A stretch of 64,000 nt of DNA from Calditrichia bacterium (GCA_028284905.1 JANQQU010000088.1:62001-126000), one strand, 5' to 3'. Shown: positions 58,125 to 63,999, counted from the stretch's first letter. Numbers and translations are program-made. Notes: generated by a model not told the origin, from the sequence alone.

Positions 58125-58154
58125 CCAGGCATCCGCCAACGGCGGCATGCCTGG
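58125..58154. repeat. Hairpin after the lamin-tail gene
   Basis: CCAGGCATCCGCC (58125-58137) pairs with GGCGGCATGCCTGG (58141-58154) with one bulged base and loop AAC. A smaller CCGCGAAGCGG hairpin lies at 58101. There is no T run, so the function may be mRNA 3'-end stabilisation. Confidence 0.5.
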
Positions 58155-58215
58155 CATGCATCTCGAAGATATTAGCTACGCATCTCCGAAATCCCTGAAA
58201 ATCAAAGGAAATCCA

Positions 58216-58869
58216 ATGATCGAAACCGAAGCTCAAGCCCGGGAATATCTCCAGGAAATACAAGCCCGCCTTATCCGCCTGGTAGATAATCGCCCATTTG
58301 TCTTTCGCGACACTTCTCGCGCCGATGCGGAAAAATATCTCGCCAGCAAGAAGAAATTCGAAGGCATCTCCCCGGCGGATATCGCCCTGAAGGAAAGCGC
58401 CCTAAACCAGCAATTCCCTCAATGCTTCCGCCTCTATCTGGAAATGATGGGCCATCGGCACGGCGATCTCTTTATCGGTAGTGATGTACGGTTTGAAGAA
58501 TATGAGGAATTTCGGGTAGAAGCCGAGGAACTCTACGAAGATAATGAAATGACGTCTCTGCTGCAGCCTGACGATGTCATTTTCCTTTTTCATCAGGGCT
58601 ATACTTATTGTTACCTGAAATCCGGTAATTATTTTGATGGGCCGATTTATCAGTATATGGAAGGAGACGAGGCTGAGAAGCAGATCGCCTCGTCCTTTTT
58701 AAGTCTGCTGGATAGCGAGCTAATCCTGATGGAAAGTAACCACACCAATTCCCATAAAACCGGTGGATATTTTGTCCGTGTCACGGAAGATGGATTTATC
58801 CAAACCACCTCTCCTGCGCAAAAAGAGAATATACGTCCATTGGATATAGGAGATCAGTTTTTGGATTAG
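58216..58869 (+). CDS. SMI1/KNR4 (SUKH)-like protein
   Basis: The start is ATG 58216 with AAAGGA 6 bp upstream; the open frame reaches 69 bp further up through the hairpin, which was rejected. The 217-residue product shows the SUKH pattern ISPADIALKESALNQQFPQC followed by FRLYLEMMGHRHGDLF, then FLFHQGYTYCYLKSGNYFDG and SSFLSLLDSELI. The last 40 residues (NSHKTGGYFVRVTEDGFIQT) are an extra beta tail. Bacterial SUKH proteins are often immunity proteins, but no toxin is adjacent. It is convergent with the small membrane protein downstream. Confidence 0.72.
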   Translation: MIETEAQAREYLQEIQARLIRLVDNRPFVFRDTSRADAEKYLASKKKFEGISPADIALKESALNQQFPQCFRLYLEMMGHRHGDLFIGSDVRFEEYEEFRVEAEELYEDNEMTSLLQPDDVIFLFHQGYTYCYLKSGNYFDGPIYQYMEGDEAEKQIASSFLSLLDSELILMESNHTNSHKTGGYFVRVTEDGFIQTTSPAQKENIRPLDIGDQFLD

Positions 58870-58951: not shown

Positions 58952-59485
58952 TCAGGTGCCATTGAATAATTCATAGGCTGAAACAGTTTTTTTAGGGCGA
59001 GAGCCGCCGGCAATCGCACCAGCAACAAAAGCGATGGACCTGATTGGTCCGCAAAATATAAACACTTCTTTAAAAAATTGAAAAATAGACACGAGCTTTG
59101 TCCAGCTCAAAATTGGCATGATGATCCCGGAAAAATAAAGTATTGCCGTAAAAGACACGCCCAGTACCAAAAAAAACAGAATGAAATTGATATAGCGCCG
59201 AATGGCCCAAAACAGAAAACCACCAAAAGCAAACGGAAAAATGACAATGTTTATCGATTCCCAGAACCAGGCGCCTAACTCCTCTGTATCGATATTCTCC
59301 AAAAGAGGGCCGGGTGGCTTGTATTTATCGGGGCTACTCTGCGGCTGACCGGTCAATGTAATACGCTCCTTGCGCACTTCAACCGGCACCTTTTTTTTGG
59401 GTAGCTTAAAGCTGTTAGCAATGAGAATATTGATGAATGCCAGTAAAACAGCTAGCAGAAAAAAAACGATCACGCGTCTTTTCAT
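58952..59485 (-). CDS. Small integral membrane protein, unknown function
   Basis: A 177-residue protein beginning after AAGGAGG. One N-terminal membrane helix (RRVIVFFLLAVLLAFINILI) is followed by a proline- and lysine-rich extracytoplasmic stretch (LPKKKVPVEVRKERITLTGQ). About three further helices follow (FWESINIVIFPFAFGGFLFW, NFILFFLVLGVSFTAILYFS, FIFCGPIRSIAFVAGAIAGG). No family recognised. It lies between the SUKH gene and the signalling cluster, on the same strand as that cluster but 148 bp downstream of it, so membership of the cluster is possible but unproven. Confidence 0.65.
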   Translation of the reverse strand: MKRRVIVFFLLAVLLAFINILIANSFKLPKKKVPVEVRKERITLTGQPQSSPDKYKPPGPLLENIDTEELGAWFWESINIVIFPFAFGGFLFWAIRRYINFILFFLVLGVSFTAILYFSGIIMPILSWTKLVSIFQFFKEVFIFCGPIRSIAFVAGAIAGGSRPKKTVSAYELFNGT

Positions 59486-59633: not shown

Positions 59634-61583
59634 TTATTTTTGACAATCCACGTTATAGTATGAAGTTAGCATTTTATTCAGAATTTGATAGGTCTCGGGA
59701 GCATCCTCACGAAGTTTATCTGATTCCTCATACCCCATATACTTTTTCAGCTCGACAAAGAATTCTTCTATGACTTCAATATTTTCCTGGAGAATTTCTG
59801 AATCCTGACACTTCGTTGTATTTTTTCCTTGATTTAAAGTCGGCAGAAAAGTTCTAAACATTTTTTCCAACACTTTTACCGCTTTAAAGAGACTTTTAAG
59901 AGAGCGAATATCATTTGGAAAACCCTTGCCATATTTTTCCCAAAAAGATTCCGAAAGATCCATTTTGAGTGGTTCTAAAATAAATTCAACTAATTCCGGA
60001 TACTGCCACTGTTTTAAATCAGGAAATTTATTATCTAACCATTGTATTTCTTCCTCGAAAAGTCCTTTCTCTTCTACATAGACAATGCCTTCTTCTTTTT
60101 CATCCAAACTTTTTGAAAGACCAAGGTAAGAGTTGAAATATTGTGAAAGGTTACCACGGATATCGCCGTTGAATCCGCTCATTCTTCGTAAGCCGTTATC
60201 AAAATCGATTTTCCCTTCTTTCTTTTGCAGGTAAAGACAAATCAGACGATGCATTAGTAACGTTCTTAGGTGCTTTTCAGTAAATTTTTTTGTCTTTAAT
60301 TGAGGAAATGTTGTCGGGATAACTCTTGCATTGCGATCATTCAAATCCTGGCTTTTGATAAAGGAGTCTACTGCTTGAAAAACTGTTTCCCATAATGCCG
60401 GTGTAGAAATCTGATGATATATTGCAAGTAGCCCATTACTTTTCCATATACCAAGCTTGGGACCACGCAAAGCGTCTATGTTATCTTCAATTTTTTCAAT
60501 AAATTCCCTTGCCAAATCAGCATAGGATAAATAATCTGGAATGATTCGGTCCGGGGTTTTGTAAATCACCGGTATATCCCGCCGTAGCTCTGACTGTATT
60601 AATCGCTTAATGGTTGACACCGCCCGTTTGCTGTAAGAGGTCAAAATATAGGTGACTAAATGAGGAATTTTACTGGCTGCTTCCAATAAATCAATACCGT
60701 GAACCGATTGCCAGAAGCCCTGTTCATCTTTCAACTCCAGATCAATTATACAAACATTGTAACGACTGGGATCTTCCGCTAAAGCTTCTATTGCTTTCTC
60801 TCCTCCCGGAAATGTTTCTACCTGGAAGAAATTGCTGAAACCTTCTTCCAGTTTATCCAAAATATCATCACGGTCTTCGACAATCATCATCCGATAAGGA
60901 GAATCTTCCAATTCCGCATCTGTTTCGCTAGGGAATGACGATTTATGCAAGGCCAGCATACTGACGATGTCTTCAACTACGATTGGCACTAAATGTTTGT
61001 CTTTGAGCATTTTCGGAAAGAATTCCCCGATGTAGTCGAGAATCTCTTCTGAAAGGATGGAACGATACCTTTCGAACACCGTAAGCATATCGCGAATATC
61101 TTTACTGGTTGAATGCTCCGTCAAATGGCGAATATCATGTACCAATTTATCGATCATACCGCTTTTTTCCAGTACGTAGCGTCGAATAAATTTCCACTTC
61201 ACCGGGCTAATTGGAGGGATATTCAGTTTGAAATAATCTGTTTCGCTCATGGGCAGGCGATGGTGCGGAAATATTGGGCAGAGAATACCGGCGGTCGAAG
61301 TCATATGGATTAACTGCTGGCGATCGAGAAAAGAGAAAAAAGCAAGGTCTGCAGTAATCTCACCTTCGATCAGGCTTAATGCAAGATCATAACCATAAAA
61401 CTGCGCATGCTTTTTATGCTCCCAGGTTAATTCCGCCAATATTAAAACGGATGTTAAGTTTTTCTTTTTTCTCGCCAGGATTTCCGGTGAATCGATAATG
61501 AATTTACTGCCGAGTGCTTTTTTCAAAGTTTCAGCGTAAGGCCCCGGATTGCAGACAATGTAGGTGTTATATTTTTTTTTCAT
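59634..61583 (-). CDS. Large protein with an embedded phosphoreceiver (REC) domain
   Basis: A 649-residue soluble protein. Residues about 229-350 form a response-regulator receiver domain: acidic E236-D237 in MMIVEDRDD, phosphoacceptor D281 in VCIIDLELKD, T315-S316 in YILTSYSK and K342 in PVIYKTPD are all present. An insert near EQGFWQSVHGIDLL lies after the phosphoacceptor. The N-terminal 100 residues resemble a second, inactive receiver-like fold (TYIVCNPGPYAETLKKALGS, SVLILAELTW, LAFFSFL). The C-terminal 300 residues are helical with no recognised output domain (no DNA-binding, GGDEF or HD motif). It ends the three-gene minus-strand unit 17 bp after the preceding gene. Confidence 0.8.
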   Translation of the reverse strand: MKKKYNTYIVCNPGPYAETLKKALGSKFIIDSPEILARKKKNLTSVLILAELTWEHKKHAQFYGYDLALSLIEGEITADLAFFSFLDRQQLIHMTSTAGILCPIFPHHRLPMSETDYFKLNIPPISPVKWKFIRRYVLEKSGMIDKLVHDIRHLTEHSTSKDIRDMLTVFERYRSILSEEILDYIGEFFPKMLKDKHLVPIVVEDIVSMLALHKSSFPSETDAELEDSPYRMMIVEDRDDILDKLEEGFSNFFQVETFPGGEKAIEALAEDPSRYNVCIIDLELKDEQGFWQSVHGIDLLEAASKIPHLVTYILTSYSKRAVSTIKRLIQSELRRDIPVIYKTPDRIIPDYLSYADLAREFIEKIEDNIDALRGPKLGIWKSNGLLAIYHQISTPALWETVFQAVDSFIKSQDLNDRNARVIPTTFPQLKTKKFTEKHLRTLLMHRLICLYLQKKEGKIDFDNGLRRMSGFNGDIRGNLSQYFNSYLGLSKSLDEKEEGIVYVEEKGLFEEEIQWLDNKFPDLKQWQYPELVEFILEPLKMDLSESFWEKYGKGFPNDIRSLKSLFKAVKVLEKMFRTFLPTLNQGKNTTKCQDSEILQENIEVIEEFFVELKKYMGYEESDKLREDAPETYQILNKMLTSYYNVDCQK

Positions 61584-61600
61584 GCTGAATGGTTCTTCTG

Positions 61601-62338
61601 TTATGCGAATAATTCTTTAATGAATTTCGAAAAAGGGCTGTTCTGGGAGCTGTAAGCTTCCGCGAGAGGATTAGTCTGGTGTTTTACGGGAAGACTATTG
61701 ATGAATTTTCGAATAGCGGTTTTCAGAGCCTCGCTTATGGTTTCGGATTTGGTTCTTTCCTGGATTATACGCTCCAATTTTTCCCATTTGTGTTCAAATA
61801 GTTGAAAATCATTTTTGTTGAGTGGCGTGAGTAAAGAATGCGCCAGTGACAATTTCTCTTCCAAAACCGGGTCTATGTCAAAAATCTGAAACAACCCTGA
61901 AATGGCATTCTGGTATTTACCCGCTTCATATTCATCGCTTTCAAATATTTCGAGGACTTTAGTAAATGTAACATATAGATCATTGTTATCAGAACGGGTG
62001 TATTCTTCAGTAATTACGTTTTTGCTTTCAAAATATTTGAAAATTGCTGCTTGCTGATTTTTTATATGCTTTGAACTTTCATGAAACGCTGCATAAACGG
62101 AGTGAAAGTTGCCATTGAGTTGTGAGAGGATACTTTTCATATGATCATTCACTTGGGCATCACTTATCAACAGAATATCCGGTAAGGGATGCCCGGAAAT
62201 AAAGTAGTCTATACCGGTGCTGTAAATACCGGCAAATTTACAATCGGACTTCGTGCCGAATTTCGGAAGCGTGTCCGGTAACAATTCATTTTTAATCGTT
62301 TTTGAAGGAATAAAAAATATAATCAGTTGGTTGCGCAT
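61601..62338 (-). CDS. Unrecognised 245-residue protein of the signalling cluster
   Basis: Its ATG (62338-62336) overlaps the TAA of the upstream kinase-like gene by one base (TAATG), so translation is probably coupled. The N-terminal 100 residues alternate strands and helices (NQLIIFFIPSKTIKNELLPD, then PDILLISDAQVNDHMKSILS), compatible with a receiver-like or other alpha/beta fold lacking the phosphoacceptor motif. The C-terminal half is helical and charged (LFEHKWEKLERIIQERTKSE). No signal peptide or membrane helix is present. I recognise no family. Confidence 0.7.
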   Translation of the reverse strand: MRNQLIIFFIPSKTIKNELLPDTLPKFGTKSDCKFAGIYSTGIDYFISGHPLPDILLISDAQVNDHMKSILSQLNGNFHSVYAAFHESSKHIKNQQAAIFKYFESKNVITEEYTRSDNNDLYVTFTKVLEIFESDEYEAGKYQNAISGLFQIFDIDPVLEEKLSLAHSLLTPLNKNDFQLFEHKWEKLERIIQERTKSETISEALKTAIRKFINSLPVKHQTNPLAEAYSSQNSPFSKFIKELFA

Positions 62339-63999
62339 TAGACCGATCTCCTTGCGGCAAATAGTATTTTACATAGGTGATATTTACTTTTTTCTTCTAA
62401 CAAATAACGGGCGATTTGCGAATAATGAATAAAGCGGACATTGAGTTTTCGTAATACCTGGGGAAGTCCCCGGCCGGATATGATTGTTACATTAATGTGT
62501 GGGTATTTCTTTTCGAACCACTCCAGCTTTGCTTTAATTGCATCAAAGTTATCTTCGAAAATCTTTTCCAGAATGCCGTAATGAATAACCAGAAAGTCAA
62601 CCCGCGCAAAATGTTCTTCCATCCATTGTGATAACTGCGGGCATTGGTTTCTTGGGTTATCCAAATCGACACGCCTTTTTGATGGTATAAGAATATTTCC
62701 TAAACTCCACAATGATTGTGAATTACAATGGCCTTCATCCATATCAGCAACAATACCTTGCACACGTTCATCCAGGACAGCAATTCTAATCAGTCCGGTT
62801 TCAATCATCTTATAAGCCGTTTTACGGTTTTCCTCCGAATTGTTGGCAGCATTGTCCACCACAAAACAGGTCGGTTGACCGTGTTGTAGACATTCATAGG
62901 AGGCCACTTTCTCTTCCTGATAACGGTCGATAAGCATTTGTTGATAATCGGCATTTTTATGGTAAATATCCGCATGGCGATCGTAGATGATATATCTTTT
63001 TTCCGGATTTAGATGTTCTATGTAGGAAATATCCTTGGTGGAGGTTGCCAGTTCATTAATCTGCCACTTCTTGACAACCGGCTCCTGATTATGGCGAATG
63101 AGCAACTCAATATTGCGGTTATTGTGAGATATTCTTAATTCCCATAACTTCAGAACCAGGTGATGTAATTCTTTTGGGCGGTCATGGAGGAAGCTTTTTA
63201 AAATTGCTTCCGGAATATACGGATACATTTCCAGAGAGCTGTTAGTCGTTAAAATTCTGAAGGGCAAAGCTTTTCCTGTATCTGTATTGCTAACTACATC
63301 AAGTAATTTATCGGAAGGGTTAATCAGCACCATGAAGTCGTGTTGAACGTTCTGGGCTAATGAATTTTTCAGCTGCTCAAAGTTATAAATGTCTACGCCC
63401 TGGATGCGAAAATCATTCTGATGTGCTTGTAAATCCCCCAGAGATTTTTCTTCATCAATTATCAACAATTCTTTCGGGCGTTGTACATAAAAACAATACC
63501 CCAGATTGCCATCAACATTAATTGCCTTTAACAAAGGTAATGCATGCTCATCATCAAGAATTTCCGGAGATATACGGCGCAGATAAGCAGCGCAAATTTT
63601 CATTTCCAGTACGCCCCAGGCAGTTTCCCTCAACTTATCGTGCTCCAGTATCGAGGTGTCGATTCGGTCATTGAGGTAGCCAACCAGGGTTTCACATTCT
63701 GCCTGCGATTTATGTGGCGGCTTATTGTTCGCATTTTGTAAATTGTCATAAACGCAAATTTCCATCAGGCTTTCCGTATCAGTTGCAATGGATTCCCGTA
63801 TTTCGAAAGTGATTTCCAGCGTTTTGTTTTTTGAAGGGTTGTAAGCGTGCTTTGCAGAATTGCGAATAATATTTTCCAGTATAATATAAAGTGCATGGGC
63901 CCCCAGCAAACCATTGGGGCTTGCAAAAGAAGGATCGTGGTCGCCCACTTCCAGGTTAAGCTCTTTCCCGTCTCGCAAATATTTAATATGTAATTGCGA
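62338..63999 (-). CDS. Histidine-kinase-like ATPase with degenerate core and additional C-terminal domains (5' truncated)
   Basis: The frame is open to the window edge, so the N-terminus is missing; about 553 residues are visible. Near the visible start the N box of GHKL ATPases is clear (LYIILENIIRNSAKHAYN). The expected G1 box is altered (ICVYDNLQNANN, lacking the D-x-G-x-G glycines), and the G2-like segment is TAWGVLEMKICAAYLRR. After the ATPase fold ends at GYCFYVQRP, a receiver-like segment (KELLIIDEEKSLGDLQAHQN) and two further alpha/beta regions follow (CFVVDNAANN, IAVLDERVQGIVADMD; VDFLVIHYGILEKIFEDNFD, INVTIISGRGLPQVL). The dimerisation and phosphoacceptor histidine region, if any, lies outside the window. 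Confidence 0.75.
   Translation of the reverse strand, partial: SQLHIKYLRDGKELNLEVGDHDPSFASPNGLLGAHALYIILENIIRNSAKHAYNPSKNKTLEITFEIRESIATDTESLMEICVYDNLQNANNKPPHKSQAECETLVGYLNDRIDTSILEHDKLRETAWGVLEMKICAAYLRRISPEILDDEHALPLLKAINVDGNLGYCFYVQRPKELLIIDEEKSLGDLQAHQNDFRIQGVDIYNFEQLKNSLAQNVQHDFMVLINPSDKLLDVVSNTDTGKALPFRILTTNSSLEMYPYIPEAILKSFLHDRPKELHHLVLKLWELRISHNNRNIELLIRHNQEPVVKKWQINELATSTKDISYIEHLNPEKRYIIYDRHADIYHKNADYQQMLIDRYQEEKVASYECLQHGQPTCFVVDNAANNSEENRKTAYKMIETGLIRIAVLDERVQGIVADMDEGHCNSQSLWSLGNILIPSKRRVDLDNPRNQCPQLSQWMEEHFARVDFLVIHYGILEKIFEDNFDAIKAKLEWFEKKYPHINVTIISGRGLPQVLRKLNVRFIHYSQIARYLLEEKSKYHLCKILFAARRSV

Follow-up and report, generated by a model that had tools for sequence, protein, structure and literature searches.

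The three minus-strand genes at the end of the analysed DNA encode, in the reading that we favour and hold to be probable, a phosphorelay built on an unnamed family of histidine kinases and coupled to an importer or to a metabolite. The analysed DNA ("the window") is a 64,000-nucleotide stretch (G000:C23:62001-126000) of an 8.55 Mb genome whose nearest relatives are recorded in public databases as Calditrichia/Calditrichaceae, and nearly 10 kb of contig past the window edge was also covered. A preliminary description had proposed an undescribed signalling system at this position, and this view is upheld, as Pfam, NCBIfam and PADLOC give it no name and a search of the open-access literature found no description of the relay.

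Gene order and extent of the locus

The three ORFs lie on the minus strand at 62338-63999 (gene 1), 61601-62338 (gene 2, a linker protein of 245 aa) and 59634-61583 (gene 3, a response regulator of 649 aa with a central receiver). Genes 1 and 2 overlap by a single base in a TAATG junction with AAGGAG upstream, while 17 bp separate genes 2 and 3, so that the tight packing reported at the outset is confirmed in both coordinates and spacing. The supposed AT-richness of the unit relative to its neighbours is correct only in part: its GC content is 39.3% vs 47.4% elsewhere in the window, yet a similarly low value (39.9%) holds for the adjoining 8 kb upstream.

Extension of the contig, which had been suggested as a check, recovered the missing N-terminus of gene 1. 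The complete gene (L002:5339-8626) codes for 1095 aa, about twice the part inside the window, and runs past the edge to window-equivalent position 65625 (G000:C23:127625). The portion within the window is its 3' part (residues 543-1095), comprising a CA/GHKL domain and a conserved C-terminal alpha/beta region.

Two further genes belong to the unit. Upstream of gene 1, at a distance of 453 bp, is a radical SAM gene (L002:9080-10159), which is retained in a second genus, where a 363-aa orthologue with 49% identity precedes the kinase (G003, locus L024). Downstream of gene 3, after 148 bp, a protein of 177 aa with four predicted transmembrane (TM) segments is encoded on the minus strand (58952-59485); it has relatives in two other copies, where they follow the kinase (C39 paralogue locus) or the regulator (L012/L024). 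An assignment of the radical SAM protein as viperin was considered and rejected: there is a pVip match (5e-11), but the protein reaches just 34 of the 180 bits required by the NCBIfam viperin model and has better scores with unrelated radical SAM families. On the opposite strand, a SUKH-1 (SMI1/KNR4) protein (58147-58869, plus strand) adjoins the operon; members of this family are often immunity proteins.

A divergent histidine-kinase family

The kinase core is recognised by motifs that are shared across the homologues (SRNxSHNxGSHVL, YxILENIIRNxAKH, WGxxEMKI, DERxQ, HxGIL and SGRG). The H-box of gene 1, ARNMAHNVGSHV, containing His447, is located about 300 bases beyond the window edge and reads AHNVGSHV where the family has SHNxGSHV. 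The N box, YIILENIIRNSAKH (residues 580-593, 63847-63888), is intact in the family alignment. At the position of the G1 box stands VYDNL (residues 625-629, 63739-63753), which departs from DxGxG in that the Asp is retained and the glycines are replaced, and at the G2 position WGVLEMKI (residues 670-677, 63595-63618; family motif WGxxEMKI) departs from GxGxG. These departures are common to the whole family and therefore represent a family trait rather than decay. The G boxes are succeeded by an alpha/beta stretch of about 375 residues, which carries the near-invariant motifs YDRHA (881), VLDERVQ (950), VIHYGILEK (1013) and ISGRG (1049), encoded between 62467 and 62985, again on the minus strand. 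The best-conserved stretches of the protein are the H-box and the N box with its Mg-binding Asn position; in 12 fused homologues, the invariant residues are M, R, H, N, S, H and V of the H-box and E, N, I, R, N and H of the N box. The N box, the altered G1 and G2 boxes and a tail of more than 350 residues had all been noted correctly from the window, while the interpretation as a degenerate GHKL ATPase has to be abandoned in view of the H-box in the full-length gene and the family-wide nature of the changes in the alignment.

Standard profiles miss this family. Pfam makes no kinase call for the gene 1 protein, NCBIfam does not recognise it as a histidine kinase, and a profile of 12 members finds no kinase match among PDB sequences. 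Across 23 family members there is no HisKA or HATPase_c match above the Pfam cut-off, the best HATPase_c value being E=0.021 (in two of the 23), and the proteins are therefore filed as a divergent family with a kinase fold and not as members of these two Pfam families.

The fold was judged from a model of the L024 orthologue, which is 38-39% identical to gene 1. In the AlphaFold prediction (mean pLDDT 68.9), a long DHp-like helical hairpin precedes a CA domain, and an alpha/beta region makes up the C-terminal part; values are poor in the N-terminal 300 residues and mostly 70-96 from about residue 380 onwards. Between residues 400 and 690 pLDDT ranges from about 54 to 96, exceeding 85 in most CA blocks, and in the C-terminal module it is mostly 75-96 with a weak stretch at 820-840. 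The top Foldseek matches of this model are histidine kinases (HprS 9epn, ShkA 6qrj and EL346), and the CA domain of ThkA is matched with a target TM score of 0.64. The DHp domain is thus marked by an invariant HNxGSHV core, the predicted hairpin and Foldseek matches to kinases, and the CA domain by its fold and N box, with the G1/G2 glycines replaced throughout the family. Because of this predicted architecture, the ranking of kinases by Foldseek and the absence of predicted TM segments in gene 1, we call gene 1 a putative soluble histidine kinase in which the ATP pocket is modified.

As the G1 and G2 glycines are missing, catalysis by gene 1 may not be taken as assured. It could be a pseudokinase or ATP-dependent scaffold, in which the CA fold and the histidine serve dimerisation or assembly and the C-terminal module with RHx, DERxQ, HxGIL and SGRG motifs is an enzyme. 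The G boxes are indeed rewritten in every member, and the D-E-R, H and G-R-G positions of the module are invariant in the manner of an active site. We nevertheless consider such a scaffold unlikely, for the H-box and N box are conserved to a degree beyond the needs of a pure scaffold, and receiver genes stand beside the kinase in most loci.

The kinase family is phylogenetically wide but rare. A scan with two exact peptide patterns, which misses members, detected 21 loci from at least 9 phyla in one genome collection, the hosts being Calditrichota, Bacteroidota, Elusimicrobiota, KSB1, Cloacimonadota, Myxococcota/Deltaproteobacteria, Pseudomonadota, Bacillota, Kiritimatiellota and Lentisphaerota, together with an archaeal MAG whose binning is putative. 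An additional locus is on a contig from a viral collection that is probably bacterial. Only 6 of 385 sampled genomes carry the kinase, five of them from the window's own family; for the phyla of G040, G081 and G083 just 1-4 genomes each were searched, too few to be informative. A search of plasmids with the L039 kinase gave no match, nor did a search of genome contigs with gene 3 alone.

The kinase tree, in which branches are long and several forks weakly resolved, contains three groups: one with Opp-type importers and radical SAM genes, one comprising the window group with L025 and the Saprospiraceae, and a Liv group. The window kinase was missed by the motif filter and is represented in the tree by its C39 paralogue and its G003 orthologue. 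That paralogue (L013:8579-11830) is followed only by a small TM protein, with neither linker nor regulator beside it, and a further copy in the same genome (C71, L014:7602-11508) is split into three genes.

The receiver protein and its rivals as output

Genes 1-3 are kept together in L024, L025, L026 and L042, and the set occurs in Calditrichota, one unclassified bacterium and Saprospiraceae. The preliminary description had named neighbourhoods without joint conservation of the three genes as evidence against itself; as they are conserved together in distant bacteria, it withstands this test. Gene 2 represents a separate conserved family, with homologues encoded directly 3' of the kinase in L025, L026, L027 and L042. 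Since gene 2 is fused to gene 3 in the sister genus (L012/L024), it is probably a conserved partner that forms part of the same complex as gene 3.

Gene 3 is, by its sequence, a response regulator with a real receiver. Its homologues in L024 (fused), L026 and L042 share one domain order, in which the receiver lies between an N-terminal module (AELxW..FxG) and a helical region at the C-terminus (GRR..EExxWL), while in L025 the protein is split over two genes. In the window, the N-terminal module (residues 1-125, LILAELTW..FYGYDL) is encoded at 61209-61583 and has a receiver-like order of strands and helices, and the receiver occupies residues 229-345 (60549-60899), both on the minus strand. The acid pair (E236, D237), the phospho-accepting Asp (D281), the Thr/Ser position (T315) and the Lys (K342) are all present. 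Pfam Response_reg matches with E=1.8e-4, below the curated cut-off; profile searches reach PDB receivers with E-values down to 1.4e-8, and Foldseek also matches receivers. Structure prediction, another check that had been suggested, thus recovered a kinase fold in the gene 1 orthologue and a receiver in gene 3, although the parts of the gene 3 model (mean pLDDT 63.5) beyond the receiver are of no more than moderate reliability, with low confidence in the C-terminal helical part. Neither Pfam nor NCBIfam has a match outside the receiver that could represent an output domain, in agreement with the original picture of a receiver with all five functional residues in the middle of a 649-residue protein with no known output domain. 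Receiver homology was also considered for the N-terminal module of gene 3, for gene 2 and for the C-terminal domains of the kinase; it was rejected, as HHalign gave no significant result and the hints are confined to the order of strands and helices and one local match (L012 residues 1005-1039, E=1.6e-6).

A second candidate for the output is to be weighed. In an ordinary two-component pair, the sigma-54 type regulator encoded at L002:10474-11829 would be the true output and gene 3 an accessory. Such receiver-bearing regulators are found downstream of the kinase in L029, L031, L032, L039 and L058, and the window copy is two genes upstream of gene 1 on the same strand. However, the window regulator has only a weak receiver-like N-terminus (Pfam, E=0.031) and is 314 bp away from the radical SAM gene, and it has no counterpart beside the kinase in L012/L024 (G003), although the operon is otherwise kept there. 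We regard this pairing as quite unlikely. A different type of downstream gene encodes a family of 629-771 aa proteins (L037:14620-16509, with relatives in L022, L043, L044 and L014); no receiver was detected in these loci, and the L037 copy appears by eye to end in an ion-channel-like segment.

A conflict or phage-defence system, where a kinase relay controls a toxic effector, is distinctly improbable. The sparse, phylum-hopping distribution would suit it, as would the occurrence of TCAD9 (PF19974), an APH-kinase-like domain located C-terminal to or beside the receiver protein in three relatives (L028:11376-14189, L038:13360-16947 and L042:13948-15687). As the domain is named for vWA-MoxR-VMAP ternary conflict systems (PMC10910872), a conflict role for the window is possible but unlikely. 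The effectors of those systems include receiver and APH-kinase domains, while no histidine kinases are reported among vWA-associated effectors (PMC7159879), and no vWA, MoxR or VMAP protein was found among the proteins scanned at the kinase loci. TCAD9 has no above-cut-off match in the window genome. The earlier suggestions of invasion sensing and of enrichment near defence genes are not borne out either: PADLOC finds no known anti-phage gene set and nothing on genes 1-3, and its matches in the flanks of 20 related loci (116 proteins) are generic ABC ATPases, sigma-54 AAA proteins and weak single matches. A defence island suggested by mad3 and mad8 matches in the flanks (8 and 6 of 116) was dismissed, a spot-checked ABC ATPase having produced both. 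Importers and biosynthetic enzymes, moreover, fit poorly with defence.

Importers, tailoring enzymes and the putative signal

A recurrent feature of the kinase loci is their association with import genes. ABC-importer genes are found upstream of the kinase, on the same strand and within six genes, in 14 of the 22 related loci having upstream sequence, the gaps being in most cases no longer than 30 bp, and their substrate-binding proteins (SBPs) are of three Pfam kinds (SBP_bac_5, Peripla_BP_6 and SBP_bac_8/1). These loci are not independent, as the tree places them in few groups, so that the link to importers is founded on no more than a few lineages and the three SBP kinds. No importer genes are near the kinase in the window or in L024, and the nearest SBP_bac_5 proteins elsewhere in the window genome are only 24-26% identical to the SBP of L025. 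Because the kinase usually adjoins genes for nutrient or peptide import, the relay probably senses a compound taken up by the cell.

Tailoring enzymes are likewise encoded nearby, among them radical SAM proteins, methyltransferases, HMGL-like proteins, SDRs and an isopropylmalate-type dehydrogenase. A radical SAM-like gene is present at the Opp-type loci L025, L031, L032, L039 and L058. In three of these, an ORF of 65-89 aa overlaps the radical SAM gene and abuts the SBP gene (L031:4639-4851, L039:4645-4842 and L058:2734-3003), and its product begins SGSVGRGK or CGSVGRGK; a variant of the motif is repeated at the N-terminus of the L031 SBP. At the window locus (L002:9080-10159), in L012 (L012:11219-12310) and in L025 (L025:5459-6586), it is the radical SAM protein itself that starts with AGSVNG or AGSTNG. 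The motif is thus carried either by the radical SAM protein or by an adjacent small ORF, and it marks a candidate peptide substrate. Among 424 ORFs of these loci, only these seven contain [ASC]GS[VT]x[GR] among their 22 N-terminal residues, a pattern that was drawn from the same sequences and is therefore a lead, not a test. The open-access literature searched contains no description of the SGSVGRGK motif.

In the phosphorelay that we favour, gene 1 would consist of an N-terminal input region, a DHp hairpin with His447, a CA domain and the C-terminal alpha/beta module. It would bind ATP and have gene 3 as its partner: the N-terminal region may read a ligand or the state of an importer, upon which the kinase would autophosphorylate on His447 and pass the phosphate to Asp281 of the receiver, the N-terminal module and C-terminal helical region of gene 3 then carrying the response. 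The input would most likely be a peptide or small molecule that a neighbouring enzyme, here the radical SAM protein, makes or modifies. In most relatives the ABC importer whose genes lie directly upstream would bring this signal into the cell; in the window lineage, the operon has the four-TM protein instead, and no importer is encoded nearby. A more elaborate scheme, which is tentative and rather doubtful, is modular self-signalling, where each branch would combine signal enzymes of its own with an ABC importer, a cytosolic kinase of the new family and variable receiver-linked outputs. The radical SAM enzyme of the Opp branch would then act on a peptide with the N-terminal SGSVGRGK/AGSVNG motif, while methyltransferases, SDRs and other enzymes would make the signal in the Liv branch.

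Gene 1 represents a divergent histidine-kinase family outside the coverage of the searched libraries; functionally, its kin are the transporter-coupled two-component systems. It resembles HisKA/HATPase_c kinases such as HprS, EL346, ThkA and ShkA in that a DHp-like hairpin precedes a CA domain whose N box is intact. It differs from them in being invisible to Pfam, NCBIfam and PDB sequence searches, in lacking predicted TM segments, in the SHNxGSHV H-box, in WGxxEMKI replacing G2 and in the DERxQ/HxGIL/SGRG module at its C-terminus. ShkA has receiver-like domains after its CA domain. PstSCAB-PhoR is an ABC-transporter-coupled two-component system. In Bce-type systems (PMC3023708), too, a transporter operon and a kinase are encoded together, an arrangement from which it follows that transport or a ligand probably drives the kinase. 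Unlike there, the importers considered here belong to several SBP families, the kinase is predicted to be cytosolic and the window copy has no adjoining transporter. The Opp loci share a radical SAM enzyme, a short ORF and an oligopeptide-type importer with RaS-RiPP/Rgg-SHP quorum sensing (PMC13361665), but the sensor is a putative histidine kinase instead of Rgg, and the short ORFs have only the N-terminal SGSVGRGK motif in common.

What is new to the libraries is a rare but widely distributed histidine-kinase family that current profiles miss, with a conserved C-terminal module and a recurrent tie to ABC importers and tailoring enzymes. If this link is true, it would represent a new way in which import, or a signal of the cell's own making, is coupled to phosphotransfer. 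A concrete candidate ligand would be provided by the radical SAM protein together with the small-ORF motif.
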